Below, piece by piece: positions 118 to 32,707 of a stretch of 64,000 nt of DNA. The notes beneath the pieces were generated by a model. That model searched no databases. It saw nothing but the letters and a program-made list of their open reading frames with translations, and had not been told where the DNA came from. Source of the DNA: Alphaproteobacteria bacterium (GTDB lineage Bacteria > Pseudomonadota > Alphaproteobacteria > Caulobacterales > Hyphomonadaceae); NCBI GenBank assembly GCA_018969425.1, contig JAGWYJ010000007.1, positions 62,001 to 126,000 on the forward strand, given 5' to 3'. Both the position numbers and the translations under genes were made by a program. Position 1 is the first letter of the stretch. Every line of letters begins with the position of its first letter.

Positions 118-369
118 GCCGCCTCTAATGCACCAGCCTGGCTTCTATCGCCAGTGAGTTTCAGGCGCGGGCGTGACGCCGCCAGCCTGAAAGGACAGGG
201 GAAAGGAGCGATGTTGCATTTCGGGACATGACTCCGTCAAAAAGATTCCACAATTCATGTGTTTGTCAGCTGGCAGTGAAGACGCCCGGGATGCGCGTGT
301 CCCTGGTCGATGAGCCCGGTCTCTGTGGCAATGTTTTGGGAGGCTCCGGCGGTGAAGATTGGAGACATA

Positions 370-1887
370 ATGATGAAACGTAAGGCGATGTTTGGAGCGA
401 TTGGCGGCCTCGCCGCAGGTGTGGCCCTGACGGCCATAGCCGTAGGGGCGCCCTCATGGGCCAAGAACGATGATCAGGCTCGAACTCCGATCCAGACCTC
501 CGTTCAATCCGGCGCACCCGCCGGCGGCTCATCCGTCGGCTGGGGGACGGTGCCGCGTCTCGCCGATCTGGTTGAGCGTGTCTCGCCTTCAGTCGTTCAG
601 GTTTTGGTTCGTTCCCCGGCTCAGGCCGGACAGGCGGGCGGCCCGGGCGGGCTTCCGGACACATTTCGGGGGACCCCCTTCGAAGATTTCTTCGGCCGTC
701 AGTTCGGGGCGCCGGGCGCTCCGTCTCGGGAGCTTCCTGATCGCATGGGGTCAGGATCCGGGTTCTTCATTGGCGACGGCTACATTGTGACCAACAATCA
801 CGTCGTGGACGATGCGAAGAAGGTCATGGTCCGCCTGGTGGACGATCGGGAGATCGACGCTGAGCTTGTTGGCGTCGACCCCAAGACCGATCTCGCTGTT
901 CTCAGGGTCAAAGACGCCGGATCTGTGCGAAGTCTTGAGTGGGGAGATAGCGACGCCGCTCGCCCGGGCGACAGCGTGTTCGCCGTGGGCGCGCCGTTCG
1001 GACTGGGCAACACCGTAACCTCGGGGATCGTTTCGGCCCGGGGGCGCAACATCAATTCCGGTCCGTATGATGACTTCATTCAAGTCGATGCGCCAATCAA
1101 TCAGGGCAATTCCGGCGGTCCGTTGTTCAACACAGAAGGCCAGGTGATTGGCGTGAACTCCGCTATCTATTCTCCGAGCGGCGGAAACGTAGGGATCGGT
1201 TTCTCCATTCCCTCATCCCTCGCTAAATCGATTGTCCGTCAGATTATCGAGAACGGGTCGGTTCAGCGAGGATGGCTGGGGGTCCAGATCCAGCCTGTCA
1301 CCCCCGATATGGCGAAAGGTCTCAATCTGAAGGAGCCGAAGGGGGCTATTGTTGCAGACGTCACTGACGCAAGCCCGGCGAAGAAAGCAGGCTTTCGTAC
1401 CGGCGACGTCATTCTGTCATTTGGAGACAAGGCCATTGACGAGGTCCATGACCTGACGCGCGCCGTCGCGGACACCAAAGCAGGGGCGAGCCGTGATGTG
1501 CGTGTTCTGAGAGCCGGTCGCGAACAGGTCCTTAAGGTGCGGATCGAGGCCCTCGAAGACAGCGTCGTCAAGACAGCGTCTCTGAGCGGATCCGGGGCGC
1601 CATCTGCAACTCCCGGCGGCCGTGTGGCTCTGGCGGATCTGGGTCTGCAGCTGTCTTCGGATGGGGGGGCGGTGATCGCAGATGTGAAGGTGAATTCTCC
1701 TGCATCGGACGTGGGCCTTCGCCCTGGCGATCGGATCGTCATGGTCAATCAGGTTGAGACGGCGACGACCGCAGACGTGGCCAAGGCGGTGGACGAGGCC
1801 CGCCGCCAGAAGCGCGAAGCAGTTCTCCTTCAGATCGACCGCGGCGGACAAAGGCAGTTTGTGGGGGTCCCGTTTCAGGCGGGCTAA
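370..1887 (+). CDS. degP: Periplasmic Do/HtrA-family serine protease (DegP-like)
   Basis: The 505-residue protein has an N-terminal signal peptide (MMKRKAMFGAIGGLAAGVAL), a trypsin-like domain and two PDZ domains (roughly residues 295-385 and 415-500). The catalytic triad is visible: H144 in TNNHVV, D174 in KTDLAVL and S248 in QGNSGGPL. This is the standard DegP/DegQ/MucD architecture of periplasmic proteases and chaperones that degrade misfolded envelope proteins. The ATG at 370 is preferred over an in-frame ATG at 310 because GGAG lies 5 bases upstream of it and the signal peptide starts there. A strong hairpin follows the stop codon, so the gene is probably monocistronic. Which paralogue (DegP, DegQ or MucD) cannot be decided from sequence alone. 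Confidence 0.95.
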   Translation: MMKRKAMFGAIGGLAAGVALTAIAVGAPSWAKNDDQARTPIQTSVQSGAPAGGSSVGWGTVPRLADLVERVSPSVVQVLVRSPAQAGQAGGPGGLPDTFRGTPFEDFFGRQFGAPGAPSRELPDRMGSGSGFFIGDGYIVTNNHVVDDAKKVMVRLVDDREIDAELVGVDPKTDLAVLRVKDAGSVRSLEWGDSDAARPGDSVFAVGAPFGLGNTVTSGIVSARGRNINSGPYDDFIQVDAPINQGNSGGPLFNTEGQVIGVNSAIYSPSGGNVGIGFSIPSSLAKSIVRQIIENGSVQRGWLGVQIQPVTPDMAKGLNLKEPKGAIVADVTDASPAKKAGFRTGDVILSFGDKAIDEVHDLTRAVADTKAGASRDVRVLRAGREQVLKVRIEALEDSVVKTASLSGSGAPSATPGGRVALADLGLQLSSDGGAVIADVKVNSPASDVGLRPGDRIVMVNQVETATTADVAKAVDEARRQKREAVLLQIDRGGQRQFVGVPFQAG

Positions 1888-1922
1888 ATCTTCCCGGGAG
1901 TTCGAGACGCGCACCCTGACGA

Positions 1923-1952
1923 GACGCCCGGTAGACGAGTCCGCCGGGCGTC
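1923..1952 (+). terminator. Hairpin terminator after the Do protease gene
   Basis: Perfect 9-bp arms GACGCCCGG (1923-1931) and CCGGGCGTC (1944-1952) enclose a 12-base loop, 35 bases after the stop codon. Only a short T-containing tail follows, so it is a likely but not textbook intrinsic terminator. Confidence 0.6.
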
Positions 1953-2056
1953 ATTGCGTTGAGGGAGAGCCGGAGGCCCCTTGCATCCATCCTGTCGCGC
2001 GTTAGCCTTGCTGTCTCAGACGCGACCAAAGATGTCGCGCATTCGGGGAGACGACA

Positions 2057-3157
2057 ATGGGACGACGAGCCGGTGGATGGGCGTTGGGTATCGGCGTCTG
2101 GGCGTCAGTGGTCTGTCTCGCCATGCCGGCCGCTCCCGACCCGCTCCGCGCGCTCGAAGGCTCAAGCAGCTATAAGCCGCCGAGAACTCCTGATGGACGA
2201 CCTGATCTTCAGGGGGTCTGGTCGAACGGATCGCTGACCACACTGACGCGTCCGGCGTCCGTTCCGACCCTGACGGTTACGCCGGAAGAAGCCGCACGTC
2301 TTGTTCGCGATAATCCGTGGGTGCAGCTGGCCGCGAGCGAGGAGGGGGCCTCGGATCTGTCCGACGGACTTCTGGCTGATGGGAATAGCGATCGCGGTTA
2401 CAACACCTTCTGGATCGACCCCGGCGCGAGCCTCGCGACTGTAAAGGGCGAGCTCCGCACCTCGTGGATCGTCGAGCCCGCATCGGGCGCGATGCCGATG
2501 TCTGAAGGGGGGCGTCAGCTCGCAAGGCAGGCCGTTCAGCGCCGGATGGCCAGGCTGTTCGCAGGTCCCGAGGCGCTTCCGATCGCCGAGCGTTGTCTGA
2601 TCGGTTTCACGGGGGCAGGCGGGCCTGTGATGCTCAACACGATTTACAACAACAATTATCAGATCGTTCAGACGCCGGACGCCGTAATGATTCTGGTCGA
2701 GATGGTGCACGATGCCCGGATCATCCGTATGAACTCAGCCCACCGGCCTGCCGCCATTCAGCCTTGGCTGGGAGACTCGATCGGCTGGTGGGACGGCGAC
2801 ACCCTGGTGGTTGAGACAATCAACGTCCATCCCGGGCAGGGAGAGGCGGGACCGGTGTATCTGTCCGACAAGGGCAAGGTGATCGAGCGCTTCACCCGCG
2901 TATCGGACGATCAGATTTTCTATGAGTTCCGTGTCGACGACCCTGTCTACTACACTCAGGCCTGGCGGGGCGAGATGAGCCTCAATGCCCGCAATGAGGC
3001 GGTCTACGAATACGCCTGTCATGAAGGCAATTACGCCATGGCCGGCATTCTGGGTGGGGCTCGTCTTCAGGAGGCCCGTGGCGAGCGTCCGTCTCTCGGT
3101 CCGGGAATCTTTCCGCGTTCAGCTCCGGCGCCCTCGTCCGTCTCTTCCGGGCGTTGA
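2057..3157 (+). CDS. Secreted protein of unknown function (RTPDGRPDLQGVW family)
   Basis: This 366-residue protein starts with a signal peptide (GWALGIGVWASVVCLAMPAAP), then the segment PRTPDGRPDLQGVWSNGSLT. That segment is typical of a large uncharacterised family of exported proteins seen in Acidobacteria, sphingomonads and caulobacters. The rest is a soluble domain with repeated aromatic motifs (IGWWDGDTLVVETIN, DDQIFYEFRVDDP) suggesting a beta-rich, lipocalin-like or sandwich fold; that fold is a guess. GGGGAG lies 6 bases before the ATG. The gene stands between two terminator-like hairpins and has no obvious operon partner, so context gives no functional clue. I do not assign a function. 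Confidence 0.75.
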   Translation: MGRRAGGWALGIGVWASVVCLAMPAAPDPLRALEGSSSYKPPRTPDGRPDLQGVWSNGSLTTLTRPASVPTLTVTPEEAARLVRDNPWVQLAASEEGASDLSDGLLADGNSDRGYNTFWIDPGASLATVKGELRTSWIVEPASGAMPMSEGGRQLARQAVQRRMARLFAGPEALPIAERCLIGFTGAGGPVMLNTIYNNNYQIVQTPDAVMILVEMVHDARIIRMNSAHRPAAIQPWLGDSIGWWDGDTLVVETINVHPGQGEAGPVYLSDKGKVIERFTRVSDDQIFYEFRVDDPVYYTQAWRGEMSLNARNEAVYEYACHEGNYAMAGILGGARLQEARGERPSLGPGIFPRSAPAPSSVSSGR

Positions 3158-8936: not shown

Positions 8937-9029
8937 TGTTGGCAGAGCGGACATGCGACGCTCTCTGACCGACGCATTCAAGGGGCCTGAACACACCTCG
9001 AAAGGCCGTGGGACAGAGGAGAGTTGAGG

Positions 9030-10721
9030 ATGACCTCCCTGACAAGTCATGTGCTCGGCGATACCTCAACGCCGCTTCTCGAGATCACGATCGGCGAAGC
9101 CCTCGAGGCGGCGGCGCGCCAGTGGGGTGATCGCGAGGCGCTGGTCTCGGTCCATCAGGGCGTACGCTGGAGCTATGGCGAACTTCTGTCCCGTGCGGAT
9201 CGTCTCGCCTCGGGTCTCTTGGAGCTCGGCCTGGTCCCGGGCGACAGGGTCGGCGTCTGGGCGCCGAATTGCGCTGAGTGGACGCTGGTTCAGTTCGCAA
9301 CGGCCCGAGTGGGGCTTATTCAGGTCAACATCAATCCCGCCTATCGGTCATCCGAACTGGAGTACACGCTCAACAAGGTCGGCGTTAAGGCTCTGATCTG
9401 CGCGCGCGCCCACAAGTCGAGCCGTTATGTCGAGATGGTCAATGAGCTGGCGCCGGAGATTAGCGACGCGCGGCCGGGGATGATCCGCGCTGCGCGGGCC
9501 CCCCATCTAAGGGCGGTGATCGAGATCGGTCCGTTCGCCGATCCAGGCTGGATGACCTTCGAGGAGCTCATCGACGTGGGTCGCAAGGGGCCTGCAACTC
9601 GCGTCCGCGATATCGCGGAAGGTCAGCGCGCGACGCAGCCTATCAACATTCAGTTCACGAGCGGAACCACCGGCCTTCCGAAGGGCGCGACCCTGTCGCA
9701 TCGAAATCTTCTGAACAACGCCCGATTTGTTGGTCAGGGCATGCGCCTCGGGCAGGATGATCGGCTTTGCATTCCAGTTCCGCTTTATCACTGTTTCGGC
9801 ATGGTGATGGGCAATCTCAGCTGTCTGGTTCACGGCTCGGCCATGATCTATCCGTCCGAGGCGTTCGACCCCTGGGCCGTCCTTCATGCGCTTGCCGCCG
9901 AGCGGTGCACCGCGCTTCACGGCGTTCCCACCATGTTTATAGCGGAACTCGAGCATCCTGAGTTCGAGCAGTTCGACCTCTCCACTCTTCGTACCGGTCT
10001 GATGGCAGGATCGCCCTGTCCGGTCGAGGTCATGAAGCGGGTCATGGATCGCATGAATATGCGTGAGGTGGGGATCGCCTATGGCATGACAGAGACCAGT
10101 CCGGTCAGCTTCCAGACAGCATTCGATGATCCTATCGAGCGTCGGGTCTCAACCGTGGGTCGTGTCCAACCGCATCTTGAGGTTAAGGTTGTCGGACCTG
10201 ACGGAGGGGCCGTTCCGCGAGGGGAGCCCGGAGAGCTATGCACGCGGGGATATTCCGTCATGCTTGGGTATTGGGAGGATCCCGAAAAGACTGCCGAGGC
10301 TGTGGACCCGGACGGGTGGATGCATACGGGCGATCTGGCCGTTCTCGACGAGGAAGGCTACGGCAACATCGTCGGCCGCATCAAGGACATGGTGATACGG
10401 GGAGGGGAGAACATCTACCCTCGCGAAGTTGAAGAGTATCTTTTTCGTCATCCGAAGGTGGAGGATGTGCAGGTGGTGGGCGTCCCCGATCGGAAGTACG
10501 GCGAAGAGCTCTGCGCCTGGATCCGGCTGCGCCATGGAGAACGGGCCAGCGAGCAGGAAATCATCGAGTTCTGCAGGGAACGCATCGCGCACTACAAGAT
10601 CCCGCGCTATGTGCGGTTTGTGGACGCCTTCCCCATGACAGTGACAGGAAAGGTGCAAAAATTCGAAATCCGCAGGGCCATGATCGCTGAGCTTGGACGG
10701 GTCGAGGAGACTACCGCCTGA
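9030..10721 (+). CDS. Medium/long-chain acyl-CoA synthetase (ACSF2/FadD-like)
   Basis: A 563-residue member of the ANL superfamily that activates a carboxylic acid to its CoA thioester through an acyl-adenylate. Visible motifs are the ATP-binding P-loop [10 protein letters not shown] (about residue 210), YGMTETSP (about 352), [22 protein letters not shown] with the hinge region, [12 protein letters not shown], and the catalytic lysine in TVTGKVQK near residue 537. The N-terminal layout resembles human ACSF2 and bacterial fatty-acyl-CoA synthetases. ATG at 9030 with GGAG at 9018 is chosen over the upstream TTG. The SDR-like gene follows closely, suggesting one transcription unit. The chain-length or ring preference cannot be read from sequence. 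Confidence 0.9.
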
Positions 10722-10782
10722 GATGACGGGCGGCTTAATTGTGAAAAAGACGAGCCGGCTGGAAAAAGGGGAGATGAGGCAC

Positions 10783-11496
10783 ATGGTCGAGCGCAAGGGC
10801 GTTCTGGTCACGGATGTGAGGGGTTTCGCCAACCCGGTGATCGCGCGGCGTCTCTTGGACGCCGGCGCTGCAGTTGTCGGCGCCGATCCGTCCGTCGAGA
10901 CGGACACGCGCGAGGACGGCCTCGACCTGGTGGCCTGGTCGGATCCGGCTCGGATCGTTGAGAGCGCGGTTGATCGCCTTGGGGGACGTTTGGACGCCAT
11001 TGTGATCTCGCCGGCCATGCCGGCTCCGCGTACCCCGGTCGAGACCCTCAGCGCCGACGTGCTAGAGGCCTATTTTGGTCGGATCGCCATCCAGTCCCTT
11101 CTCTTCGCCGCGGCCGCAGCGGCCCACATGCGGCGGGCGAAATCAGGACGGATTGTTTTTGGGACATCTTCGGGTCCGATCGGCGGAATTCCCGGCTTCG
11201 CCGCCTACGCGGCTGCCCGATCAGCGGTGAACGGCGTGGTGAGAACGCTGGCTCTCGAGCTGGCCTCTGACGGCGTTTCGGTGAATGCGGTCGCCCCGAA
11301 TTTTATCCAGACCGAGACTTACTATCCGCGTGCGCTTCTCGAGGATCCTGTGAAGGGACCCAAACTCTTGGCGCGCGTGCCCATGGGCAGGCTCGGGGAG
11401 GCCGATGAGGTCGCCTCGGTCATCGAGCTTCTCGCACTTGGCCGCTCGGGCTTTGTGTCCGGTCAGGTCATACCGATCTCGGGGGCATGGTGCTGA
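10783..11496 (+). CDS. SDR-fold protein with halohydrin-dehalogenase-type active site
   Basis: A 237-residue short-chain dehydrogenase/reductase-fold protein, but the usual glycine-rich TGxxxGxG cofactor motif is replaced by T10-DVRG-F15-A-N17, and the catalytic lysine is an arginine: S129, Y142, R146 spaced S-x12-Y-x3-R. This spacing equals the Ser-Tyr-Arg triad fingerprint of halohydrin dehalogenases (HheC S132/Y145/R149). The T-x4-F-x-G signature is met except that the last Gly is Asn. Segments such as IVFGTSSGPIGG, NAVAPNFIQTETYY and FVSGQVIPISGAW also align with HheC by eye. ATG 10783 is preferred because AAGGGGAG lies 9 bases upstream; ATGs at 10723 and 10774 are less well placed. It could instead be a degenerate oxidoreductase or other NAD-independent SDR. 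Confidence 0.7.
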   Translation: MVERKGVLVTDVRGFANPVIARRLLDAGAAVVGADPSVETDTREDGLDLVAWSDPARIVESAVDRLGGRLDAIVISPAMPAPRTPVETLSADVLEAYFGRIAIQSLLFAAAAAAHMRRAKSGRIVFGTSSGPIGGIPGFAAYAAARSAVNGVVRTLALELASDGVSVNAVAPNFIQTETYYPRALLEDPVKGPKLLARVPMGRLGEADEVASVIELLALGRSGFVSGQVIPISGAWC

Positions 11497-16476: not shown

Positions 16477-17745
16477 ATGGATTTCGACCTGCCGCCGGAT
16501 CTGGCCGAATATCTCAAGATCCTGGATCGCTTCATAGAAACGCAGATCCGGCCGCTCGAGGAGGCGGACGACAATATCCGCTTCTTTGACCACCGCCGCG
16601 AGCATGCGCGAACCGACTGGGACAAGGGCGGGCTTCCGCGGCCTGAATGGGAGGAGCTCCTGTCGGAGGCCCGACGTCGCGCGGACGAAGCGGGCCATTA
16701 TCGTTTTGCGCTTCCTAAGGAGCTCGGAGGACGCGCTGGCGGCAATCTGGCCATGGCTGTCATTCGGGAACATTTTGCTGCACGCGGCCTGGGTCTCCAT
16801 AACGATCTGCAGAATGAGCACTCGATCGTCGGCAATACGGTCGGCGCCATGCTCATGTGGGCCTACGGCACGCCTGAGCAGAAGCGGGACTGGCTGGAGG
16901 ATCTCGTCACCGGAAAGCGCCATTTCGGCTTCGGCATCACCGAGCCTGCCCATGGATCGGACGCCACCCATATGGAGACCCGCGCCGTTCGGGATGGAGA
17001 CGACTGGATCATAAATGGCGAGAAGACGTGGAACACCGGCGTACATACGGCTAGTCACGATCTCATTTTCGCACGAACGGGCGGCAAGGCCGGAGATGCT
17101 GGCGGCATCACCGCTTTTCTGGTTCCGATTGATGCGCCGGGCTTCCGGATCGAGACCTATCTCTGGACGTTCAACATGCCGACGGATCACGCTCATGTGA
17201 CGCTCAGAGATGTCCGCGTCCCGCGCGCTGCCGTCTTCGGGGGCGAGGGGCGTGGTCTTCAGGTCGTTCAGCACTTCTTCAATGAGAACCGGATCCGGCA
17301 AGCCGCCTCCAGCCTGGGGGCGGCGCAGTATTGTATAAACGAGGCCATCGCGTATGCCCGGGAGCGTAAGCCGTTCGGCAAACCGCTGGCCTCCAATCAG
17401 GCGATCCAGTTCCCCCTGGTGGAGCTCCAGACGCAGTGCGAGATGCTGCGCACGCTTATCCATAAGACCGCCTGGCTTATGGATCGCGACGGCGCCTTCT
17501 CCGTCTCGGACAAAGTCTCGATGTGCAATTACTGGGGCAATCGACTCTGTTGCGAGGCGGCGGATCGGGCGATGCAGATCCACGGCGGTCTGGGCTATTC
17601 GCGACACAAGCCCTTCGAGCACATCTATCGTCATCACCGACGGTATCGGATCACAGAAGGGGCCGAAGAGATCCAGATGCGGCGAGTAGCGGGTTATCTC
17701 TTTGGATTCATGAGTCAGCGGGCGCCGAAGGGGGTCGAGGAGTGA
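16477..17745 (+). CDS. Acyl-CoA dehydrogenase, ACAD11/LvaC-like
   Basis: A 422-residue flavoprotein of the acyl-CoA dehydrogenase family, longer than the usual 380. Motifs include FGITEPAHGSDATHMET (FAD/substrate loop), WIINGEKTWNTGV, ERKPFGKPLASNQAIQF, AMQIHGGLGY, and ITEGAEEIQ near the C-terminus, in which E394 occupies the normal catalytic-base position. The segment IYRHHRRYRITEGAEEIQMRRVAGY resembles ACAD10/11-type proteins. The next gene, 2 bases downstream, is an aminoglycoside-phosphotransferase-fold kinase. In mammalian ACAD10/11 and the Pseudomonas levulinate pathway (LvaA/LvaC) this enzyme pair converts 4-hydroxyacyl-CoA through a phosphorylated intermediate. GGGAG lies upstream of the ATG. 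Confidence 0.88.
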   Translation: MDFDLPPDLAEYLKILDRFIETQIRPLEEADDNIRFFDHRREHARTDWDKGGLPRPEWEELLSEARRRADEAGHYRFALPKELGGRAGGNLAMAVIREHFAARGLGLHNDLQNEHSIVGNTVGAMLMWAYGTPEQKRDWLEDLVTGKRHFGFGITEPAHGSDATHMETRAVRDGDDWIINGEKTWNTGVHTASHDLIFARTGGKAGDAGGITAFLVPIDAPGFRIETYLWTFNMPTDHAHVTLRDVRVPRAAVFGGEGRGLQVVQHFFNENRIRQAASSLGAAQYCINEAIAYARERKPFGKPLASNQAIQFPLVELQTQCEMLRTLIHKTAWLMDRDGAFSVSDKVSMCNYWGNRLCCEAADRAMQIHGGLGYSRHKPFEHIYRHHRRYRITEGAEEIQMRRVAGYLFGFMSQRAPKGVEE

Positions 17746-17747
17746 CT

Positions 17748-19160
17748 ATGGAGAGGGCTCAGCTCGAAGCGGCCCTGCGCCGGGGGCTCGGAGGCTTTGA
17801 GAGTCTTGCCGGTTGGACGCGACTCACGGGCGGGGCAAGTCGGGAAACCTATCGTATCGAGGCCGTGGTGGATGGACGCCAGAGGTTTCTGGCTCTTCGT
17901 CGAGCTCCTGGGGACGGGGCTTCGGCCGTTGGCGAGGGGTCGTCCATCGCGCTTGAGGCGGCGCTTATCGCTGCAGCCCGCCGCGCGGGTGTTGAGGGTC
18001 CTGACGTACGAATGAGTCTGATTCCGGAAGATGGTCTGGGCGCCGGTTTCCTGATGGACTGGATCTCTGGCGAGACAATCGGATCCCGCATTGTGCGCCG
18101 GCCGGAGTTTGCAGGGGTTCGATCTAAAATGGCGCGGGCATGCGGCGAGATTCTCGCGCATCTTCATGCGGTCGATATCGAGACAGAGGAGCTTTCAGGA
18201 GCGCTGCCTCACATGACCCCTGAAGAGGCGGTCTGCCGTACCCTGACATCTTATCGTGAGCTCGATTCGCCCCAGCCCATGATTGAGTTCACAGCGCGCT
18301 GGCTGCTGGAGCATCTTCCAAAAGAGAACCGCACGACGCTGGTTCACGGCGATTTCCGATGCGGAAATTTCATTGTTGATCCGGGGGAGGGCATACTCGC
18401 CGTACTGGACTGGGAGCTCGCTCATGTAGGAGATCCGATGCGGGATCTGGGTTGGCTCTGCACTCGGTCCTGGCGTTTTGGGGTCAATGAACTCCCAGTC
18501 GGGGGTTTTGGACAGTATCAGGATCTCTTCGAGGGCTATGAAGCTGTCTCAGGCTATCGTGTCGATCCGGTCTCGGTTCGCTTCTGGGAGGTGTTCGGTT
18601 CGTTCTGGTGGTCGGTCGGATGTCTTCAGATGGCGCAATCCTACAGGACAGGCGCTGAGACGAGCCTCGAGCGTCCCGCCATCGGACGACGAAGCTCTGA
18701 ATGTCAGATTGACTGCGCGAACATGCTCATTCCAGGTCCGGTGACGCCCCCCTCCGCCACGTCTCGCACTCTGTCGGCCACAAGTCTGCCGGGCACGCAC
18801 GAGCTCCTGCGCTCGGTACGGGATTTTTTGCGGCATGAGATCGGTTCGGACCAGAATGAAAGAAACGTCTTTCTCGCTCGTGTCGGAGCCAATTCTCTCG
18901 ACACCGTAATGCGCGAGCTCCTTCATGGCGCTGCGGCCCGAGATGAGGAGGCTAGAGGCCTTGAGGGGATTCTGGGTCACAGGGGCGAGCTCGAAGACAT
19001 GCGCAGAGACCTCTGTCGCCGGATCGCCGATCGCAGCATCGCTATCGACGATTCCGCGCTGAAGGGCCTGCTTCGCAGCAGCGTCCTGGCCCAGTGCATG
19101 ATCGATCAGCCTTCTTATCCAGGCGTAGTCGAGGCTCTGGCCCAGACAAATGCGGCCTAG
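17748..19160 (+). CDS. APH-fold acyl-CoA kinase fused to a DUF6285-like C-terminal domain (LvaA-LvaB-like)
   Basis: The 470-residue protein has an aminoglycoside/choline-kinase-fold domain (about residues 5-330) with the N-lobe segment LTGGASRETYRIE, the catalytic loop LVHGDFRCGN (H200-G201-D202) and the metal-binding aspartate in VLDWELAHVGDPMRDLGW (D221). About 120 further residues (349-470, from PGTHELLRSVRDFLRHEI) are helical and resemble the small DUF6285 protein normally encoded separately beside such kinases. GAGGAG sits 5 bases before the ATG, and only 2 bases separate it from the preceding dehydrogenase. In the levulinate pathway LvaA needs the small LvaB protein to phosphorylate 4-hydroxyacyl-CoA, so a fusion of the two is the most attractive reading. 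Assignment of the C-terminal domain is from memory of the family. Confidence 0.8.
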   Translation: MERAQLEAALRRGLGGFESLAGWTRLTGGASRETYRIEAVVDGRQRFLALRRAPGDGASAVGEGSSIALEAALIAAARRAGVEGPDVRMSLIPEDGLGAGFLMDWISGETIGSRIVRRPEFAGVRSKMARACGEILAHLHAVDIETEELSGALPHMTPEEAVCRTLTSYRELDSPQPMIEFTARWLLEHLPKENRTTLVHGDFRCGNFIVDPGEGILAVLDWELAHVGDPMRDLGWLCTRSWRFGVNELPVGGFGQYQDLFEGYEAVSGYRVDPVSVRFWEVFGSFWWSVGCLQMAQSYRTGAETSLERPAIGRRSSECQIDCANMLIPGPVTPPSATSRTLSATSLPGTHELLRSVRDFLRHEIGSDQNERNVFLARVGANSLDTVMRELLHGAAARDEEARGLEGILGHRGELEDMRRDLCRRIADRSIAIDDSALKGLLRSSVLAQCMIDQPSYPGVVEALAQTNAA

Positions 19161-24038: not shown

Positions 24039-24611
24039 TCAGTCCTTGGCGCGTTCCTGGTAGGAGCCGTCCTCGGTCGAAACGATGACCCGGGTCCCGA
24101 CACCGATGTGGGGCGGCACCATCACCCTGACCCCGTTAGAGAGAATGGCGGGCTTGTAGGATCCAGAGGCGGTCTGGCCCTTCACGACCGGTTCGGTCTC
24201 GACGATCTCAAGTGTGACCCGCTGCGGCAGCTCGATCGAAACAGGCCGTCCGTCGAACATCATCAGGATGCAGCTCATATTCTCGCCAAGATACGCAGCC
24301 ATGTCGCCGAGCATGTCGCCCGGAACAGTGATCTGCTCGAAATTCTCGGGGTTCATGAAGATGTAGTTTTCGCCATCCTGATAGAGGTAGTTGTGATTGA
24401 CCTCCTCGACAAAAGCCCGTTCGACCTGATCGGTCGTCTTGTAGCTTTCGATGACCTTGATGCCGTCGGAGATACGCCTCATCTCGACTGAGGTCGTTGG
24501 GGTGCCTTTTCCAGGCCGATAGGTCTCCGCCTTAAGGACGATGTACAGACGCCCGTCCTCTTGCTCGATCACATTGCCCTTGCGGATGTTGCTGGCGATG
24601 ACTTTGACCAC
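24039..24611 (-). CDS. efp: Translation elongation factor P
   Basis: A 190-residue EF-P with all three OB-like domains: [20 protein letters not shown], the modification loop [19 protein letters not shown] with [19 protein letters not shown], and the conserved end [17 protein letters not shown] followed by [16 protein letters not shown] binds between the P and E sites of stalled ribosomes and promotes peptide-bond formation at polyproline. Lys35 in RPGKGTP is at the position beta-lysylated in E. coli, and the two modifying enzymes are encoded divergently next door. GTG at 24611 is chosen (AAAGG, 8-base spacing) because upstream in-frame residues do not belong to the family. Confidence 0.97.
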
Positions 24612-24772
24612 GGAAAACGCCTTTGTGTCTGTCGCTCGCCGGGCTAAGCGCACAGCGGCTCATATGGGTTGAAGCGGTTTGGGTCATAGCCCTAACCGGC
24701 CGTCCGGCCAAGGGCGAGAGAGGGGCCTCGGGTGAGTAAACAGGGATTTTGGGGCCATTGGGGGTTAAGAAG

Positions 24773-25798
24773 ATGGCGGAACGCAAGTGGTGGCGGCCGG
24801 ATATTCACGCTGATCGGCGTCCCTTCCTGCTGGCTCGGGGACGAATTCGCACGGCGCTGAGATCCTGGTTCGAGGCCGAGGGCTTCCTTGAGGTCGAGTG
24901 CGGAGCCTTGCAGGTTTCGCCGGGCAATGAGGCTCATCTTCATGCGTTCTCGACCCGCTGGCGCGGCGAAGCCGGCGAGGATCGAGAGTTTTATCTCCAC
25001 ACCTCGCCGGAGTTCGCCTCCAAGAAGCTTCTGGCGGCCGGAGAGCGGCGGATTTTTGATTTTGCGAGAGTTTACCGTAATCGAGAGGCGGGAGCGCTTC
25101 ACGCTCCTGAATTCACCATGCTCGAGTGGTATCGCGCTCTTGAGCCCTATGAACAGGTGACCGCCGATGCGGTCGCTCTGGCGCGAAGCGCCTCGACTTG
25201 TCTCGGACGCGAACTCTTCAGCTGGCGGGGAAGGACTTGCGATCCGGGCCTCGACCCTGAAAGGCTGACCCTCGCCGAGGCGTTCGTTCGCCATGCGGGG
25301 ATCGATCTGCATCAGGTCATGGAGGATCTTGCGGGCCTGGCTCGCGAGGCGGGCCGTATCGGGGTCCGTGTCGCGGCTGACGATACGTGGTCGGATCTGT
25401 TCTCTCGCATTCTTGTCGAGCGGATCGAGCCCCATCTGGGTCAAGGTCGCCTGACGATTCTCTGCGAGTATCCTCTTTGCGAGGCGGCGCTCGCCCGCCC
25501 CGTCGCCAGCCGACCAGACGTTGCTGAACGCTTCGAGCTCTACGCCTGCGGTGTCGAACTGGCCAACGGCTTTGGCGAGCTGACCGATCCGGTCGAACAG
25601 AGGCGAAGGTTCGAGGCGGAGATGTCTGAAAAGGCGCGCCGCTATTCGGAGCGTTATCCGCTGGACGAGGACTTTCTAAGCGCCCTGGAAATCATGCCGG
25701 AAGCCTCGGGCGTAGCCATGGGGTTTGATCGTCTGGTGATGCTGGCGTCAGGGGCTCGTACGATCTCGGACGTTCTGTGGACGCCTCTGACAGTCTAG
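24773..25798 (+). CDS. epmA: EF-P--(R)-beta-lysine ligase EpmA (GenX/PoxA)
   Basis: A 341-residue truncated class II lysyl-tRNA-synthetase-like enzyme lacking the anticodon-binding domain. Class II motif 2 appears as FDFARVYRNREAGALHAPEF followed by TMLEWYRA, and motif 3 as GVAMGFDRLVMLASGA. The ending TISDVLWTPL is close to that of E. coli EpmA. It ligates (R)-beta-lysine to the conserved lysine of EF-P. It is divergent from efp (161 bp) and followed by epmB, giving the whole modification module. ATG 24773 follows a G-rich ribosome binding region; the TTG at 24749 is less likely. Confidence 0.93.
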   Translation: MAERKWWRPDIHADRRPFLLARGRIRTALRSWFEAEGFLEVECGALQVSPGNEAHLHAFSTRWRGEAGEDREFYLHTSPEFASKKLLAAGERRIFDFARVYRNREAGALHAPEFTMLEWYRALEPYEQVTADAVALARSASTCLGRELFSWRGRTCDPGLDPERLTLAEAFVRHAGIDLHQVMEDLAGLAREAGRIGVRVAADDTWSDLFSRILVERIEPHLGQGRLTILCEYPLCEAALARPVASRPDVAERFELYACGVELANGFGELTDPVEQRRRFEAEMSEKARRYSERYPLDEDFLSALEIMPEASGVAMGFDRLVMLASGARTISDVLWTPLTV

Positions 25799-25957
25799 GG
25801 GGCGCCGGCTCTTGCTGTTGCCCCGAGGCGTTGGGCGCAGCCCCTGACGTCCGAAGGGATGGGGCAGACGCTGGGCCCGCGTCATGCTAGCAGCCTGAGG
25901 CGTTTTCCCGGCGACCCGACCCCATTTCATCCTTCATCTGAAGTTTCGAACTCTGCC

Positions 25958-26998
25958 ATGTCCAGGACCTTGCGCGACCTTGACGACCTGCTGACCGAAG
26001 GGCTCCTGTCGCCGGATCGGAGAGACAGGCTTGGCGCAGTCGCGGAGCGCTATGCGATCGCCGTCACCCCTCATGTGAAGTCGTTGATGGAGACATTGGA
26101 CGACGCCGATCCCATCGCTCGTCAGTTTCTTCCGGATGAGGCTGAGCTGGTGCGGCATCCTGATGAGAGCGCTGATCCGATCGGCGATCATGCACATGAG
26201 CCCGTGCAAGGGGTGGTCCACCGCTATCCGGACCGGGTCCTCCTCAAAGTCGTCTCCGTTTGTCCCGTCTATTGTCGGTTCTGCTTCCGTCGCGAAATGG
26301 TGGGACCCGGGCGGGAGCCGGGATTGTCTCCCGCCGGACTTGAAGCCGCCCTGGATTACATCCGCCGCACCGAGGCTGTATGGGAGGTCATTCTGACCGG
26401 AGGCGATCCGTTCATGCTTTCGACGCGAAGGGCTCGTGAGCTGACGGCTGAGCTCGACGCCATCGACCACGTAAAGGTGATTCGATGGCATACGCGCATG
26501 CCCGTCGCTGATCCGGATCGGATAACTGAAGAGTACGCCTCGGCGATCGCAAGTCGTCGCAAGGCGGTTTATGCAGCCGTTCACGTCAACCATGCGAGGG
26601 AGTTGTCTCCGTCCGTCCGCGGCTCCCTCAGGCGTCTCTCGCAGGCGGGTGTCTTTCTTCTCTCTCAGAGCGTCCTTCTCAAGGGGGTCAATACCACATT
26701 CGAGGCCCTGCGCGATCTGATGCGGGCGCTGGTGGAATGCGGGGTCCGACCCTATTATCTCCATCACCCTGATCTGGCTCCCGGCACATCCCACTTCCGC
26801 GTGTCCATTGAAGAGGGACGAGACCTTGTGCGGCGCCTCCGGGATGAAACCTCTGGGCTCTGTCAGCCGGATTACGTGCTCGATATCCCCGGGGGGATGT
26901 CCAAGGCCCTCATGTCCCCGCAGGATATCGAAACACAGAGTGGTTCAGTTCGTCTGCGCGGGCGCGACGGGTCCTGGGTGAGGTACTCGCGGGACTAG
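25958..26998 (+). CDS. epmB: EF-P beta-lysylation protein EpmB (lysine 2,3-aminomutase-like)
   Basis: A 346-residue radical-SAM, PLP-dependent aminomutase. The radical-SAM cysteine motif CPVYCRFCFRR (CxxxCxxC) follows VLLKVVSV; a GGDPFML motif and the PLP-lysine region LDIPGGMSKALMSP are also present. EpmB converts (S)-alpha-lysine to (R)-beta-lysine for EpmA. Length equals E. coli EpmB (about 342), clearly shorter than clostridial lysine 2,3-aminomutases, and the position after epmA fixes the role. The ATG at 25958 has only a weak GAAG upstream; an in-frame ATG at 25859 would add 33 residues unlike the family. Confidence 0.93.
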   Translation: MSRTLRDLDDLLTEGLLSPDRRDRLGAVAERYAIAVTPHVKSLMETLDDADPIARQFLPDEAELVRHPDESADPIGDHAHEPVQGVVHRYPDRVLLKVVSVCPVYCRFCFRREMVGPGREPGLSPAGLEAALDYIRRTEAVWEVILTGGDPFMLSTRRARELTAELDAIDHVKVIRWHTRMPVADPDRITEEYASAIASRRKAVYAAVHVNHARELSPSVRGSLRRLSQAGVFLLSQSVLLKGVNTTFEALRDLMRALVECGVRPYYLHHPDLAPGTSHFRVSIEEGRDLVRRLRDETSGLCQPDYVLDIPGGMSKALMSPQDIETQSGSVRLRGRDGSWVRYSRD

Positions 26999-27224: not shown

Positions 27225-28928
27225 ATGACCAACTTTCGGTCTCTTGTCTTCGGACTTATAGGACTGCTCGCAGCCTGCGGCGGGGGCGGCGGATCCTCGG
27301 CTCCAGGCGGAGGAACGACCCCCCCGGTCGCGGTTAAACCGACGATTGCCGAGGCCTCCCGCCTTCTGACTCAGGCCAGCTTCGGTCCGACGGACAGCGC
27401 CATTTCGGCGGTGCAGGACGCCGGTCTCACCGGATGGATCAACTCCCAGATCTCCATGCCTCTGCCGGCGGTCTCCCACGAGCAGTTCGTCTCTGATCGT
27501 CTGGCGGAGCTTGGGGCTGTATCCGCAACCAACTTTTATGAGAGCTGGTGGCGTCAGGCCGTCACAGAGCCTGACCAGCTTCGACAGCGAACCGCTTTCG
27601 CTCTTTCGCAGATTTTTGTGATCTCGCTGGCCGACACGGCGGTCGATGTCCGAGGCGCGGCCTCCTACTACGACATGCTCAACCGCAATGCGTTCGGAAA
27701 CTTCAGACAGCTTTTGGAGGATGTGACCCTTCATCCGATGATGGGCCGCTATCTGACTTTCCTCGGAAATCAGAAGGAGGATGTCAACGGAACGCGGACC
27801 CCGGACGAGAACTACGCCCGAGAGGTCATGCAGCTTATGACAATCGGCCTTCAGGAGTTGAATCAGGACGGGACGCCGAAGCTATCCGACGGACAGCCCA
27901 TCGCCGCGTACACTCCGTCGGATATTGCGGGACTGGCGAAAGTGTTCACCGGCATAAGCTGGTACCATAACGCCCCCACTGCGACGACTTTCTTCGGCGG
28001 TAACGCTCATTCCGACCGCTCCGTTCGGCCGATGATCTTCTACCCCGTCTACCACTCGACGTCAGCCAAGACCTTTCTCGGAACAACGATCCCCGCCAGC
28101 ACAACTGTTGATGTGGCCGGCGACCTGAAGATCGCGCTCGATAAGCTCTACAATCATCCGAACGTCGGACCGTTCATCTCGAAGCGCCTCATTCAGCAGC
28201 TGGTGACGAGCAATCCTTCTCCCGCCTATGTCACTCGGGTGGCGGGAGTGTTCAACAATAACGGTTCAGGAGTGAGGGGGGATATGGCCGCCGTGGTGCG
28301 TGCGATCCTGACCGACACTGAGGCCCGCAATATGGCGTCTGTTTCCGCTGCAGACTTCGGGAAGCTGCGTGAGCCTGTAATCCGCATCGCCAACTGGGCG
28401 CGCGCGTTCGGCGCGACGTCTCAGTCAGGAAAGTGGTTGTTCACCTCCACCAGCGCCAACACCATCCTGGGGCAGTCTCCTCTGACTTCGCCATCAGTTT
28501 TCAATTTCTGGAGACCAGGATTTGTTCCGCCCTCCACCACAGAGCTTGGTCAGAGATCATTGACCGCACCGGAGTTTCAGGCTGTCGACGAGGTCACGAC
28601 CGCCTCATGGATCAACACCATTCAGTCGGTGGTGGATCTGGGGACCGGGTCGACCCCGACGGGGGGTACCGGACGAGATGTGCGTTCGGCCTACGCTTCA
28701 GAGATTGCCCTGGCTGAAACGCCTTCAGCTCTGGTTGAGCGGATGAATAATCTGCTGTTTTACGGTCAGATGACGGCCGCCCTGCAGACCCGTCTCCTGG
28801 CCGCTGTCAATGCGGTGGCGATCCCCGCCAGCGGGACCCAGGCCCAGATCGACGCAGCTCGACTCAATCGGGCCAAGACCGCTGTTTTCTTTTCGATGAT
28901 TTCGCCCGACTATCTGGTTCAGCGCTGA
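27225..28928 (+). CDS. DUF1800 family lipoprotein
   Basis: A 567-residue exported protein with a lipoprotein signal peptide (VFGLIGLLAACGGG, Cys18) and a Gly/Ser/Pro linker. A DUF1800 domain follows, starting ASRLLTQASFGPTDSAI and including ENYAREVMQLMTIGLQEL and VFNFWRPGFVPPS. DUF1800 proteins are large helical exported proteins nearly always paired with a DUF1501 protein, as here (stop at 28928, next start 28940). The biochemical role is not known, though secretion or cell-surface roles have been suggested for the pair. GGAG lies upstream of the ATG, next to a palindrome that could regulate translation. Confidence 0.9.
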   Translation: MTNFRSLVFGLIGLLAACGGGGGSSAPGGGTTPPVAVKPTIAEASRLLTQASFGPTDSAISAVQDAGLTGWINSQISMPLPAVSHEQFVSDRLAELGAVSATNFYESWWRQAVTEPDQLRQRTAFALSQIFVISLADTAVDVRGAASYYDMLNRNAFGNFRQLLEDVTLHPMMGRYLTFLGNQKEDVNGTRTPDENYAREVMQLMTIGLQELNQDGTPKLSDGQPIAAYTPSDIAGLAKVFTGISWYHNAPTATTFFGGNAHSDRSVRPMIFYPVYHSTSAKTFLGTTIPASTTVDVAGDLKIALDKLYNHPNVGPFISKRLIQQLVTSNPSPAYVTRVAGVFNNNGSGVRGDMAAVVRAILTDTEARNMASVSAADFGKLREPVIRIANWARAFGATSQSGKWLFTSTSANTILGQSPLTSPSVFNFWRPGFVPPSTTELGQRSLTAPEFQAVDEVTTASWINTIQSVVDLGTGSTPTGGTGRDVRSAYASEIALAETPSALVERMNNLLFYGQMTAALQTRLLAAVNAVAIPASGTQAQIDAARLNRAKTAVFFSMISPDYLVQR

Positions 28929-28939
28929 GGAGCAGGGTG

Positions 28940-30517
28940 ATGACGATGTCCATCCAGACCCGAAGAGAAATCCTTCGCAGAGCCGCCGCTCTCTCCACCG
29001 TCGGGGCTGCAGCGTCGACCTTCGGTTTTCAGCTCGCCACGGTCGGCGCTGCTGCAGCCCAGACGGCCCCTGACTTCAAGGCTCTTGTGTGCATCTTCCT
29101 GTTCGGAGGGAATGACGCGCACAACATGGTGCTCGCAACCGACACCGACAGCTGGTCGCGCTATTTCGCAGCGCGGAATACGGGAGCTGTCCCCATCGCC
29201 TTGATGCCTGTTGGGACGCCGCCTACGCCGGTCGGAGAGGTTAATCCTGTAACCGGCCGAACATCCACCCTGCAGATTCCTGAAAGCTGGGGCGGAGTTC
29301 TTCCCATCACTCCTTCAACGCCCAATCCCGTTCCGGCCGGGACCAATGCGTCCGTGCGCACCTTCGGCCTCCATCCCCATCTCGGCCCTCTGGTGCCGAT
29401 CTGGCAGGCCGGTCGGCTGGCGGTGGCGGCCAACGTCGGCCCGCTGATACAGCCGACGACCAAAGCGCAGTATCGTGCGCGCAGCGTCCCCCTGCCGACA
29501 AGTCTGATGTCGCACAATGACCAGCAGGCGACGTGGCAGGCGGGGTCTGCTGAAGGCGCCCGCCGCGGCTGGGGCGGCCTGATGGCGGACCAGTTCCTGT
29601 CTCTCAATGGAACCAACAATGTCTTCACCGCCATGTCGACAGCCGGAAATGCTGTCTTTCTGGCCGGTCAGAATGTGGTCCAGTATCAGGTGACAGCGAC
29701 TGCGACGCCTGCAGTGAGAATTACCTCGGCCGCTGCGACGACAACGACAGTGTTCGGCGCCGCTAACGCCGGAGCGCGTGTGCGAGAGATTATCCGCGAT
29801 ACGTCCGGCGCGAGCTATTTCATGAAGGATTACGCCGCCAAGGTCGTGCGATCGATGGATTCCTCGGAACTGCTGAATGCCGCCTTCGCGACCCCCGCGA
29901 TTTCCGGTGTTCCCGCTCCAAGTCAGCTCGTCAATCCGATTACTCGCGCCTCTGAGACGAACGCACTGGCGGTTCAGCTTCAGGCTGTGGCGCGCACTAT
30001 CGCAGCAAACGCCAGCCTTGGCTTACGCAGGCAGGTATTCTTCGTAAGCATGGGCGGTTTCGACAATCATGACGTCCAGAATACGGCCCAGTCCCCTCTG
30101 ATGGCGCGTCTGGGACATGCGATGGCCTATTTCGACAGTGTCTTGTCCAACCTGAACGGTGTCGACATGCGCCAGGCGGTCACTACCTTCACCGCGTCGG
30201 ATTTTTCCCGGACCTTCACCACCAATGGCGACGGCACGGACCATGCCTGGGGCGCGCATCACTTCGTGATGGGCGGCTCGGTAAGAGGAGGAAGGATCTA
30301 TGGTCAGTATCCGACCCTTGGGGTCGATCAGACCAACGGTTTCCAGAATCCCGATATGTCGGGGAACATTCTCATTCCGACAATGTCGGTAGACCAGTAC
30401 GCAGGCGCGCTCGGCCGATGGTTCGGCGTGCCGCAGGCTTCTCTCGACAGTATCTTTCCGAATCTGAGGAACTTTTCGGGCGGAATTCCTGATTTCATGG
30501 CCGGAGCCATTGCCTGA
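28940..30517 (+). CDS. DUF1501 family Tat-exported protein
   Basis: A 525-residue protein starting with a twin-arginine signal (TRREILRRAAALS, cleavage near AAAAQTA). The DUF1501 segments follow: LVCIFLFGGNDAHNMVL, TFGLHPHLGPLVPIWQAGRLAV, SLMSHNDQQATWQ, FFVSMGGFDNHDVQ and DGTDHAWGAHHFVMGG. The fold is related to the sulfatase/alkaline phosphatase superfamily, with histidines and aspartates that could bind metal, but activity is unknown. It partners the upstream DUF1800 lipoprotein, 11 bases away. GAGGAG precedes the start; GTG 28937 and ATG 28946 are close alternatives. The gene converges on the VirB operon. Confidence 0.9.
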   Translation: MTMSIQTRREILRRAAALSTVGAAASTFGFQLATVGAAAAQTAPDFKALVCIFLFGGNDAHNMVLATDTDSWSRYFAARNTGAVPIALMPVGTPPTPVGEVNPVTGRTSTLQIPESWGGVLPITPSTPNPVPAGTNASVRTFGLHPHLGPLVPIWQAGRLAVAANVGPLIQPTTKAQYRARSVPLPTSLMSHNDQQATWQAGSAEGARRGWGGLMADQFLSLNGTNNVFTAMSTAGNAVFLAGQNVVQYQVTATATPAVRITSAAATTTTVFGAANAGARVREIIRDTSGASYFMKDYAAKVVRSMDSSELLNAAFATPAISGVPAPSQLVNPITRASETNALAVQLQAVARTIAANASLGLRRQVFFVSMGGFDNHDVQNTAQSPLMARLGHAMAYFDSVLSNLNGVDMRQAVTTFTASDFSRTFTTNGDGTDHAWGAHHFVMGGSVRGGRIYGQYPTLGVDQTNGFQNPDMSGNILIPTMSVDQYAGALGRWFGVPQASLDSIFPNLRNFSGGIPDFMAGAIA

Positions 30518-30548: not shown

Positions 30549-31532
30549 TCAAACTCTGCGATTGACCATCACCCGCTCGACCATCCTCCGCCCGTTTATG
30601 CGGGTCAGCTGCACGACGATGTCGAGGACGGAACGCGCGTAGTCGCGAATATCCGATCGCGTCAGGCTGAGGCCGCTCTGCAGGCTCATGAAGGCGATCT
30701 GCTCGAGAGCGCCTTCTGGACTGTCGGCATGCACGGTCGTGAACGAACCCGGGTGTCCGGTGTTGACGGCGCGCAGGAAGGTAAATGCTTCGGCCCCCCG
30801 GATTTCTCCGACCATAAGACGGTCCGGTCTCATTCGGAGCGAGGCGCGAAGCAGGTCGTCGACGCCGACCTGAGATTCGCCGAGCTCACTTTTGACGGCG
30901 ACAAGACCAACGGAATTGGGCTGAGTGAGAGTGACCTCCGCCGTGTCTTCAATCACGATGACGCGGTCTGTGGCTGGCGTTTCCTTGAGCAGCGCGTTGA
31001 GGAAGGTGGTCTTTCCCGACGCGGTGCCGCCGGAAATCACGATATTCCGGCGCGCTCTGACCGCCAGGGCGAAGAACGCTCTGAGGTCTCCGTGTTGAAG
31101 CAGCTCATCCAGCCGGGCGTCGATATCGGAGCGAGACGGCTGAAGCGCAGAGTCGACCGCACGGAACGCCCCCGCTGCTTCATAGTCCTCCAGCGTCAGA
31201 TCCGGGACGACATGCTTCCGGATCGCCAGAGCGATCGTCCCGCGCGTCGCCGGCGGCCCCGCCAGCTGAACACGCGCTCCATCGGGAAGAGTAGCGGCCA
31301 GAAGCGGGTGTTCCCGGCTTACACCCTGACTTGATGACGCTGCGATCTGCTGGGCGAGGCGCTGAAGCATAAGCTCCGTGATCGCAGGGGCCTCGATCCG
31401 CTCGAGACCTGACGCGCTTTCGATCCAGACCTCTCCCGGTCTGTTGACCATGATATCCGTGATGTCGCTTCGGTCGAGCCAGGGCGAGAGCGGAGCCATG
31501 TAGGTCTTGAGATAAACTCCACCCCCGTTCAC
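30549..31532 (-). CDS. virB11: Type IV secretion ATPase VirB11
   Basis: A 327-residue secretion ATPase of the PulE/VirB11 family. Walker A is GGTASGKT (168-175), the Asp box is VIVIEDTAEV, Walker B is LMVGE (239-243), and the His box lies in NTGHPGSFTTVHADSP. It forms the cytoplasmic hexamer that, with VirB4, drives pilus assembly and substrate transfer. A GTG start overlaps the virB10 stop by 4 bases (GTGA) and has AGGAG 8 bases upstream. It is the last gene of the operon; a 12-bp palindrome (30529-30540) lies in the 31-bp gap before the converging DUF1501 gene. Confidence 0.95.
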   Translation of the reverse strand: MNGGGVYLKTYMAPLSPWLDRSDITDIMVNRPGEVWIESASGLERIEAPAITELMLQRLAQQIAASSSQGVSREHPLLAATLPDGARVQLAGPPATRGTIALAIRKHVVPDLTLEDYEAAGAFRAVDSALQPSRSDIDARLDELLQHGDLRAFFALAVRARRNIVISGGTASGKTTFLNALLKETPATDRVIVIEDTAEVTLTQPNSVGLVAVKSELGESQVGVDDLLRASLRMRPDRLMVGEIRGAEAFTFLRAVNTGHPGSFTTVHADSPEGALEQIAFMSLQSGLSLTRSDIRDYARSVLDIVVQLTRINGRRMVERVMVNRRV

Positions 31533-32707
31533 CGATCCGTCTCCTGGACCGAAGCGGGGCCGACGGTGGAAAAATCAAGATCCTGAGACACGAAAACCCG
31601 CACCGGAGAGCCCTGGGGGACGTTCACTGTCGGCGAGATGTCGAGATCCTTCGAGAGGGCGACCCCAACCGAATCGGCTCCGGCGCGAGTGGAGGCTATG
31701 ACGATGCTCGTGTCGGAAGCTTCGGTCGCTGCGTTGACCCCCAGATTAAGAAGGGTCAGGAGCATCGCGCCGCCGAAGCGCTGGAGGAAGTGTCGGTCGA
31801 CGTCTCCGTCAAGCCCGCCTCGTCCCAGCGCATCGGTCGCCGGCGAGGCGAGCGGGACGCTTGCCCCGTCCGGTCGGATCAGCCGTGTCCAGATTACGAA
31901 GGTTCGCGACTGGCCGAGCGCCATTCCAGACCGATACTGGCCAATCAGCCGGCTTCCTCGCGGGATGAGAACCGCCGAGCCGTCGAAGCCGCGGACATCC
32001 CGACTGACCACTGCCCGTACATATCCGGGCAGGTCTGAATTGAGAGCTGTTTCAAGCACTGCTGGAATGATGGACCCTTCCACTACCGTGGTCGAGAGGT
32101 TGACCATGGACACGGCCTGAGCGGGCTTGCTCGCATCGCCGACGCCCAGTCGGCGGGCGAAGCGCTCATCGGCGTCGGCTCCAGGCGTCCCTCCTGTAAC
32201 GGGCGCCTGAGATGCTCCCACAGCTGCAGTGATAGCCGCAGCGCTCGGGCCTCCTGCCGGTGTCGTTCTTTCCGGCGCCCCTTCAGCCCTGAATTCCCCG
32301 AGATCGATGATCAGAGCAGGAGCCCGCAGACGTTCGAGCTCGGCCTGAGTGGGACCTGGCGCCGGAGGCGCTGGCGGGGAAGGGGACGCTACGGGAGTTT
32401 CGGCGATTGCCTCCGGGGGCGGGTCTGTCGGAGCAAGAGGGGTTTGGGCGAAGGCGGACAGGTCGGGCGGCGGAGGGACATCCTCGGCGGAGAGCGGAGC
32501 GCTTCCGGGGGCCGGGTCTGTCAGTCGTGCTGCTTCGATACGGGCGCGATTGGCGGACAGCTGCATGAAGATCAGCGTCCCGAGAGCCAGGGCCCCGAGA
32601 AGTCCGGCAACAACCGGCCAGGGTGAGCTCGCCATGCCGACACGCGGCAGCGGCTCGTTCATCCCAGCCCGAGGGCTGCCCGACGTGGGAGAGGGGGGAG
32701 GCGTCAT
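31529..32707 (-). CDS. virB10: Type IV secretion core-complex protein VirB10/TrbI
   Basis: A 392-residue protein with one N-terminal transmembrane helix (PWPVVAGLLGALALGTLIFM) and a long Pro/Ala-rich periplasmic spacer. The C-terminal VirB10 beta-barrel follows, with the segments TVVEGSIIPAVLETALNSDL, GSAVLIPRGSRLIGQYRSG and RPDGASVPLASPATDALGR. It spans both membranes and links ATP use to the outer-membrane core. Its ATG overlaps the virB9 stop by 4 bases. The two-helix antenna that crosses the outer membrane would lie around FGGAMLLTLLNLGV. Confidence 0.95.
   Translation of the reverse strand: MTPPPSPTSGSPRAGMNEPLPRVGMASSPWPVVAGLLGALALGTLIFMQLSANRARIEAARLTDPAPGSAPLSAEDVPPPPDLSAFAQTPLAPTDPPPEAIAETPVASPSPPAPPAPGPTQAELERLRAPALIIDLGEFRAEGAPERTTPAGGPSAAAITAAVGASQAPVTGGTPGADADERFARRLGVGDASKPAQAVSMVNLSTTVVEGSIIPAVLETALNSDLPGYVRAVVSRDVRGFDGSAVLIPRGSRLIGQYRSGMALGQSRTFVIWTRLIRPDGASVPLASPATDALGRGGLDGDVDRHFLQRFGGAMLLTLLNLGVNAATEASDTSIVIASTRAGADSVGVALSKDLDISPTVNVPQGSPVRVFVSQDLDFSTVGPASVQETDR

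Follow-up and report, generated by a model that had tools for sequence, protein, structure and literature searches.

An HHDH-derived SDR-fold protein with asparagine at the motif-1 glycine position in a Hyphomonadaceae lineage

The window (the whole 64,000-nucleotide stretch of Hyphomonadaceae DNA that was analysed) carries a gene that, as judged from sequence comparison, is real, conserved and derived from the halohydrin dehalogenases (HHDHs), enzymes of epoxide ring opening and closure that are used to make chiral alcohols. Alignments and trees establish its HHDH ancestry, a Ser-Tyr-Arg triad, the absence of the NAD(P) glycine motif, a Pro-Asn loop and, fixed in its lineage, Asn17 together with Gly14 and a changed pair at residues 76-77. 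The protein most likely works as a cofactor-free Ser-Tyr-Arg enzyme. We favor, at about even chances, the reading that this HHDH-descended, cofactor-independent enzyme has a rebuilt nucleophile pocket and uses a nucleophile that is not an ordinary halide. The gene and its residues of interest are:

10783..11496, plus strand: coding sequence of the SDR-fold, HHDH-lineage protein, 237 aa (ORF, translation, searches, trees, AlphaFold2, Foldseek)
10810..10833, plus strand: motif 1, T10-D-V-R-G14-F15-A-N17, compared with T-x4-F/Y-x-G in HHDHs and T-G/A-x3-G/A-x-G in SDRs
11008..11013, plus strand: S76-P77, counterpart of HheC Asn79-Asp80 (alignment)
11167..11220, plus strand: motif 2, S129-x12-Y142-x3-R146, catalytic triad assigned by homology (sequence, alignment)
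11296..11328, plus strand: P172-N-F-I-Q-T-E-T-Y-Y-P182, aligned to HheC P175-N176-Y177-L178 ... Y187-P188

The longest open reading frame at this locus opens with TTG at 10693. A GGGGAG stretch is followed immediately by an ATG at 10774 and, nine bases further on, by a second ATG at 10783, which is the probable, not proven, true start.

Fingerprint and ancestry

An earlier note, made from the letters of the window, had placed T10, F15, N17, S129, Y142 and R146 correctly, along with the frame, its strand and its coordinates. Its Ser-Tyr-Arg triad is present in the 237-aa translation and kept in 14/14 orthologues, and the loss of the cofactor glycine motif that it described is equally general, TGxxxGxG being missing from all 14 when they are aligned with SDRs of the same genome and of others. 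The motif definitions used here are those in the available parts of PMC11976700 (motif 1 for HHDHs and SDRs, and motif 2) and PMC4989007 (motif 2). By these, motif 2 (S-x12-Y-x3-R) is found in every one of the 14 orthologues and the nicotinamide glycine motif is replaced, but motif 1 (T-x4-F/Y-x-G) fails in all of them, Asn taking the place of Gly. Because one defining HHDH motif fails, the window protein is not filed as an HHDH; neither does it conform to the classical NAD(P)-dependent SDRs (TGxxxGxG and S-Y-K). As a gauge of chance, the window has 120 stop-to-stop ORFs that reach 150 aa or more, and S-x12-Y-x3-R is present in 1 of them. It was found in 0/43 comparison SDRs, as was T-x4-[FY]-x-[GN] within the first 45 residues; these 43 comprise 16 own-genome paralogues (three long-branch ones removed) and 27 matches from other genomes.

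In a first tree of 74 proteins, 19 SDRs of the same genome split from six HHDH references and the window family with support of 100/99. The same split, again at 100/99, was recovered in a second tree of 92 proteins with 38 ordinary SDRs, built without the motif-1 region and without the alignment columns of the triad residues Ser, Tyr and Arg. SDR_L014, L015 and L020 were dropped after the first tree, before the alignment counts, and SDR_L008, L044, L050, L054, L061 and L122b were dropped for the second, leaving the 38 SDRs. The references were HheA, HheB, HheC, HheD and 6a41; the position among HHDHs apart from ordinary SDRs is to be read against this A-D set plus 6a41, and no subtype is assigned to the window protein. 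The HHDH kinship proposed in the earlier note is thus upheld by two trees, and the outcome it had named as refuting, a phylogeny within ordinary SDRs, did not occur. Inside the HHDHs the window family forms a tight clade with two relatives, L033 (52% identical to the window protein) and L034 (51%), at 100/100 and then 100/99. With the motif columns this clade nests in the HheA/HheC/6a41 branch (97/85); once these columns are removed, it becomes the sister of that A/C group, with weak support (80/43).

A single-sequence search of the PDB returned 6a41, labelled "dehalogenase", first (E = 7.6e-40), and places 1-6 were all HHDHs, counting 8xxb and 7b73, which are labelled SDR in that search and named HheD8 and HheD2 by Foldseek; several FabG chains ranked above HheC. 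A profile of 14 relatives gave HHDHs at ranks 1-12, if 8h8y is counted, an entry labelled "alpha/beta hydrolase" that we took as a G-type HHDH for its length and its rank near 8hqp (AbHheG_m); one other SDR (6y4d), two further HHDHs and FabG followed. Pfam returned SDR-type families only, and the best 25 of 187 NCBIfam models were likewise SDR-type, all far below their cut-offs, with no HHDH model among them. The AlphaFold2 model (pLDDT 95.1, pTM 0.92, from a 41-row alignment) matched HHDHs at Foldseek ranks 1-16 against the PDB, the best being 6a41 (TM 0.92, 35% identity); FabG came at rank 17 with a printed E-value equal to that of rank 16, and FabG stood above HheC 1pwx (25).

The best match by sequence and by fold, 6a41, shares the SDR fold (TM 0.92) and, together with the class relatives L117 and L118, resembles the window protein in its Ser-Tyr-Arg triad, its loop Asn and its lack of an NAD motif. 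It differs in its overall sequence (35-36% identity), in having T-x4-F-x-G with Lys at the HheC-His11 site, and in reading NNDAYP where the window protein has ISPAMP. HheA (4z9f, 1zmo) and HheC (1pwx) have the same triad and Pro-Asn loop, and 4z9f and 1pwx fall on its side of the trees, but they are 31% and 27% identical and differ by the motif-1 Gly, by His11 and by Asn79-Asp80 (HheC numbering). HheD2 (7b73, Foldseek rank 14), HheD8 (8xxb, rank 11) and HheB (4zd6) have the triad in common with it, whereas they are 27-33% identical and carry Gly in motif 1, with Asn79 in HheB and HheD2. FabG-type SDRs share the fold and the Ser and Tyr positions; in contrast, they have Lys for Arg, retain TGxxxGxG and lie on the opposite side of the trees (100/99). 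No paper on structure 6a41 was found in our literature search.

Asparagine 17 and the pocket

The motif-1 glycine position is Asn in 14/14 distinct orthologues, rows sharing their last 150 residues having been removed before counting, and outside the clade it is Gly in 29/30 relatives and Ala in 1/30 (L034). These 30 leave out L092-L095 and L122b; for a further relative set, rows sharing their last 120 residues were removed. The 12 coding sequences compared use both AAC and AAT for Asn17, and five pairs give dN/dS values of 0.069-0.124, one pair having saturated dS; since both codons occur and dN/dS is low, Asn17 is kept by selection. A pseudogene is ruled out by the open frame, the triad conserved in all 14 orthologues and dN/dS. 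One orthologue, L031, has Ala instead of the motif-1 Thr.

The neighbouring positions have changed with it. The HheC-His11 site, just before the aromatic residue, is Gly in 14/14 orthologues, against His in 22, Lys in 5, Glu in 1, Arg in 1 and Gly in 1 (L122) of the 30 outside relatives. At the HheC Asn79 position 28/30 outside relatives have Asn, which is also present in the HheA, HheB and HheD2 references, and all 14 orthologues have Ser, Ala or Cys; the Asp80 position is Pro, Ser or Gly in the orthologues, making the 76-77 pair mostly Ser-Pro, and Asp80 is missing from HheB and HheD2 as well. In L033 and L034 Asn79-Asp80 is gone but the His remains, and the motif-1 position is Gly or Ala; from this pattern we infer that the pocket may have been rebuilt stepwise. 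The aromatic F15 is kept in 14/14 orthologues, and N173, the counterpart of HheC N176, in 14/14 orthologues and 30/30 outside relatives, with the Pro of the Pro-Asn loop replaced by Ala in some orthologues. HheC N176 contributes to halide binding. Taken by sequence alone, then, the halide/nucleophile pocket keeps its loop Asn and motif-1 aromatic and is changed at the Gly, His and Asn/Asp positions.

Mutational work on two HHDHs bears directly on this site. According to the accessible portion of PMC11976700, HheC G14 and HheG G20 were each replaced by all 19 other residues, and Ala alone retained detectable activity; the activity data there match soluble expression, so some of the inactive Gly mutants may be misfolded. 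The same portion describes the glycine of motif 1 as "quite invariable", and Thr is the one position for which it mentions naturally occurring variation. Our literature search found no report of a natural Asn variant of motif 1, within the parts of the papers available, and no paper combining "halohydrin dehalogenase" with "Hyphomona". Here a whole lineage under purifying selection has Asn at a glycine described as "quite invariable" in the available text of PMC11976700, together with neighbouring changes, and relatives that lack Asn79-Asp80 but have Gly or Ala at the site offer an evolutionary series for testing how a halide pocket is rebuilt.

Mechanism and alternative readings

For the preferred reading, a cofactor-independent Ser-Tyr-Arg enzyme with a rebuilt pocket, we propose the following mechanism. 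Ser129 and Tyr142 would bind the oxygen atom of an epoxide or a vicinally substituted alcohol, Arg146 would lower the pKa of the Tyr, and the Tyr would move a proton while a nucleophile departs from, or attacks out of, the pocket that NAD would otherwise fill. In this pocket an amide side chain would stand for Gly, Gly for the neighbouring His and, on the facing strand, mostly Ser-Pro for Asn(-Asp). The expected nucleophile would not be an ordinary halide; it could perhaps be water, another anion or an oxygen nucleophile held by Asn17. Such a rebuilt pocket and non-halide nucleophile would make turnover of an endogenous epoxide or beta-substituted alcohol, possibly arising from acyl-CoA breakdown, likelier than haloalkane degradation. 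As a counterpoint, the His-to-Gly change could compensate for Asn17 and leave a normal halide site, and the mutants were made in HheC and HheG rather than in the window lineage. We put forward only tentatively the more specific proposal of an HHDH-derived family with an Asn-based nucleophile site, a non-halide nucleophile and an SDR-fold activity not yet described, in which the reaction may be, for example, that of water on an epoxide or of the oxygen anion of an acyl-CoA-derived metabolite.

The strongest competitor is a functional halohydrin dehalogenase that represents a new subtype, in which Gly14 and the strand-4 changes compensate for Asn17 and halide is still the leaving group. The triad, N173 and the aromatic F15 in 14/14 orthologues, the purifying selection and the title "dehalogenation enzyme" of the closest solved structure (35% identity) would all suit it, but several pocket positions are altered together, and in the accessible part of PMC11976700 every replacement of the Gly other than Ala left HheC and HheG without detectable activity, with the caveat of solubility; on balance we consider it unlikely, if still a serious contender. 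Both alternatives of the earlier note, a divergent new subtype or a different NAD-independent activity, stay live, with kinship, triad and cofactor-motif loss supported. An HHDH relic with a regulatory or non-catalytic role has a precedent in the same order, where motif 1 is retained in L092-L095 although Pro replaces the catalytic Tyr; the intact triad in 14/14 orthologues and the purifying selection on the gene speak against it, and we think it improbable. Finally, an ordinary NAD(P)-dependent SDR whose Lys has become Arg is suggested by the SDR fold, by the generic SDR models that alone appear in Pfam and NCBIfam (best 25 of 187) and by some FabG chains that outrank HheC in the single-sequence search and Foldseek. 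This reading is contradicted by both trees (100/99 on the HHDH side, motif columns in or out); TGxxxGxG is missing from 14/14 orthologues, none of the best 25 of 187 NCBIfam models reaches its cut-off, and we give the reading hardly any credence.

Distribution and genomic context

Orthologues are present in 14/15 genomes of the genus, including the window's own. A family-level search found them in 15/105 genomes, with only G092 outside the genus. At order level the search hit 9/299 genomes: the window's own, G092, three of the genus and, as deeper relatives, L092-L095. At class level the family profile gave matches at E <= 1e-38 in 41/385 genomes, counting the window's own, and both strict motifs are present in 24 of the 28 distinct relatives that were read among 42 other matching places. 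The figure of 41/385 is an upper one, because only 28 relatives were read and a broader profile caught an ordinary SDR in L147 (E = 1.8e-46), where an ordinary SDR frame (TGGTRGIG, S-x12-Y-x3-K) is accompanied by another frame, of low complexity, in which S-x12-Y-x3-R occurs by chance. Across the phylum 5/398 genomes matched at E <= 1e-45, including the window's own and one class member, and the matches L145 and L146 have canonical motifs. The statement of the earlier note that true halohydrin dehalogenases are rare does not hold for this class, given up to 41/385 genomes and the two motifs in 24 of 28 relatives.

Several relatives vary in the fingerprint itself. L092-L095 retain T-x4-[FY]-x-G and have S-x12-P-x3-R in 4/4, a mirror image of the window protein with the pocket motif intact and the triad broken. 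L104, L105 and L108 have Trp at the motif-1 aromatic position, and L121 has Ser for the motif-1 Thr. L122 (around 1498-3008, minus strand) has two adjoining HHDH-like genes, one with the full fingerprint and a second with Tyr-x3-Gln and Gly at the motif-1 aromatic position.

The genes around the window gene are:

9024-10721, upstream: fatty-acid-CoA ligase (above the NCBIfam PRK12583 cut-off)
Downstream: TetR gene, convergent
Downstream: HlyD-type fusion protein (Pfam)
Downstream: RND transporter (recognised by eye)
Downstream: acyl-CoA dehydrogenase, APH-DUF6285 protein, PRK12582-type acyl-CoA synthetase and second acyl-CoA dehydrogenase (Pfam/NCBIfam)

The acyl-CoA context to which the earlier note had pointed survives in part. 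Within the fetched flanks, a homologue of the ligase is found at only one of the 12 related loci L021-L032 (L021), and an operon with the acyl-CoA ligase is unsupported. The dehydrogenases, on the other hand, recur: in L028 an acyl-CoA dehydrogenase 78% identical to the window's second one lies about 38 bases downstream on the same strand, and in L138 a homologue abuts the gene upstream, also on the same strand. These two adjacent same-strand cases in distinct lineages are suggestive of a link. Homologues of the window dehydrogenases occur in the fetched flanks of 3/18 deeper loci (L125, L138, L140), which by rough estimate is about what genome counts would allow; their mere presence within 13 kb means little, since the acyl-CoA dehydrogenase family has 9-42 matches per genome in five genomes.

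The TetR neighbour is kept at 9 of the 12 loci; L029 and L032 stop short, and L028 has different neighbours, including an upstream trypsin/PDZ-type protease gene that matches window 310-1887. At six of the 12 the gene immediately upstream falls into a single cluster of proteins of about 760 aa; Pfam identifies the L023 member of this cluster as a hybrid sensor kinase. Other deeper relatives have varied chromosomal neighbours, as seen by eye for 23 of 30 loci from the first 70 residues of each, and the gene caller missed the HHDH-like gene at 3/33 loci (L127, L133, L140). L033 and L034 lie directly upstream of infC (L033 after thrS), recognised by eye, which suggests that they are old chromosomal genes. 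Neighbours in L137 and L142 resemble alpha/beta hydrolases by eye, a fold that includes epoxide hydrolases.

The family also touches on what HHDHs do in nature. In the parts of the papers available, haloalcohol dehalogenation is given as the natural function (PMC6434027) or detoxification and degradation of haloalcohols are presumed (PMC11536340), and PMC4989007 notes that an epoxide hydrolase shares its operon with only two of the known HHDH genes and does not exclude other physiological functions. With at least 24/385 class genomes showing both strict motifs, and with varied neighbours, the wider family bears on this natural role.

Other features of the window were also recorded. The APH-family kinase domain and DUF6285 form a single frame at 17742-19160, between acyl-CoA dehydrogenase and acyl-CoA synthetase genes. 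A 366-aa protein at 2057-3157 matches nothing in Pfam or NCBIfam at the thresholds applied; its homologues are found in L022, L023 and L026, each time upstream of the HHDH-like gene. At 24039-26998 an EF-P gene stands beside class II tRNA-synthetase-like and radical SAM proteins (Pfam), a set that we take to be consistent with EpmA/EpmB-type EF-P modification. A DUF1800-DUF1501 pair occupies 27225-30517, and on the minus strand at 30549-34379 consecutive Pfam VirB8, CagX, TrbI and T2SSE-type ATPase genes form a VirB8-VirB11-like set.
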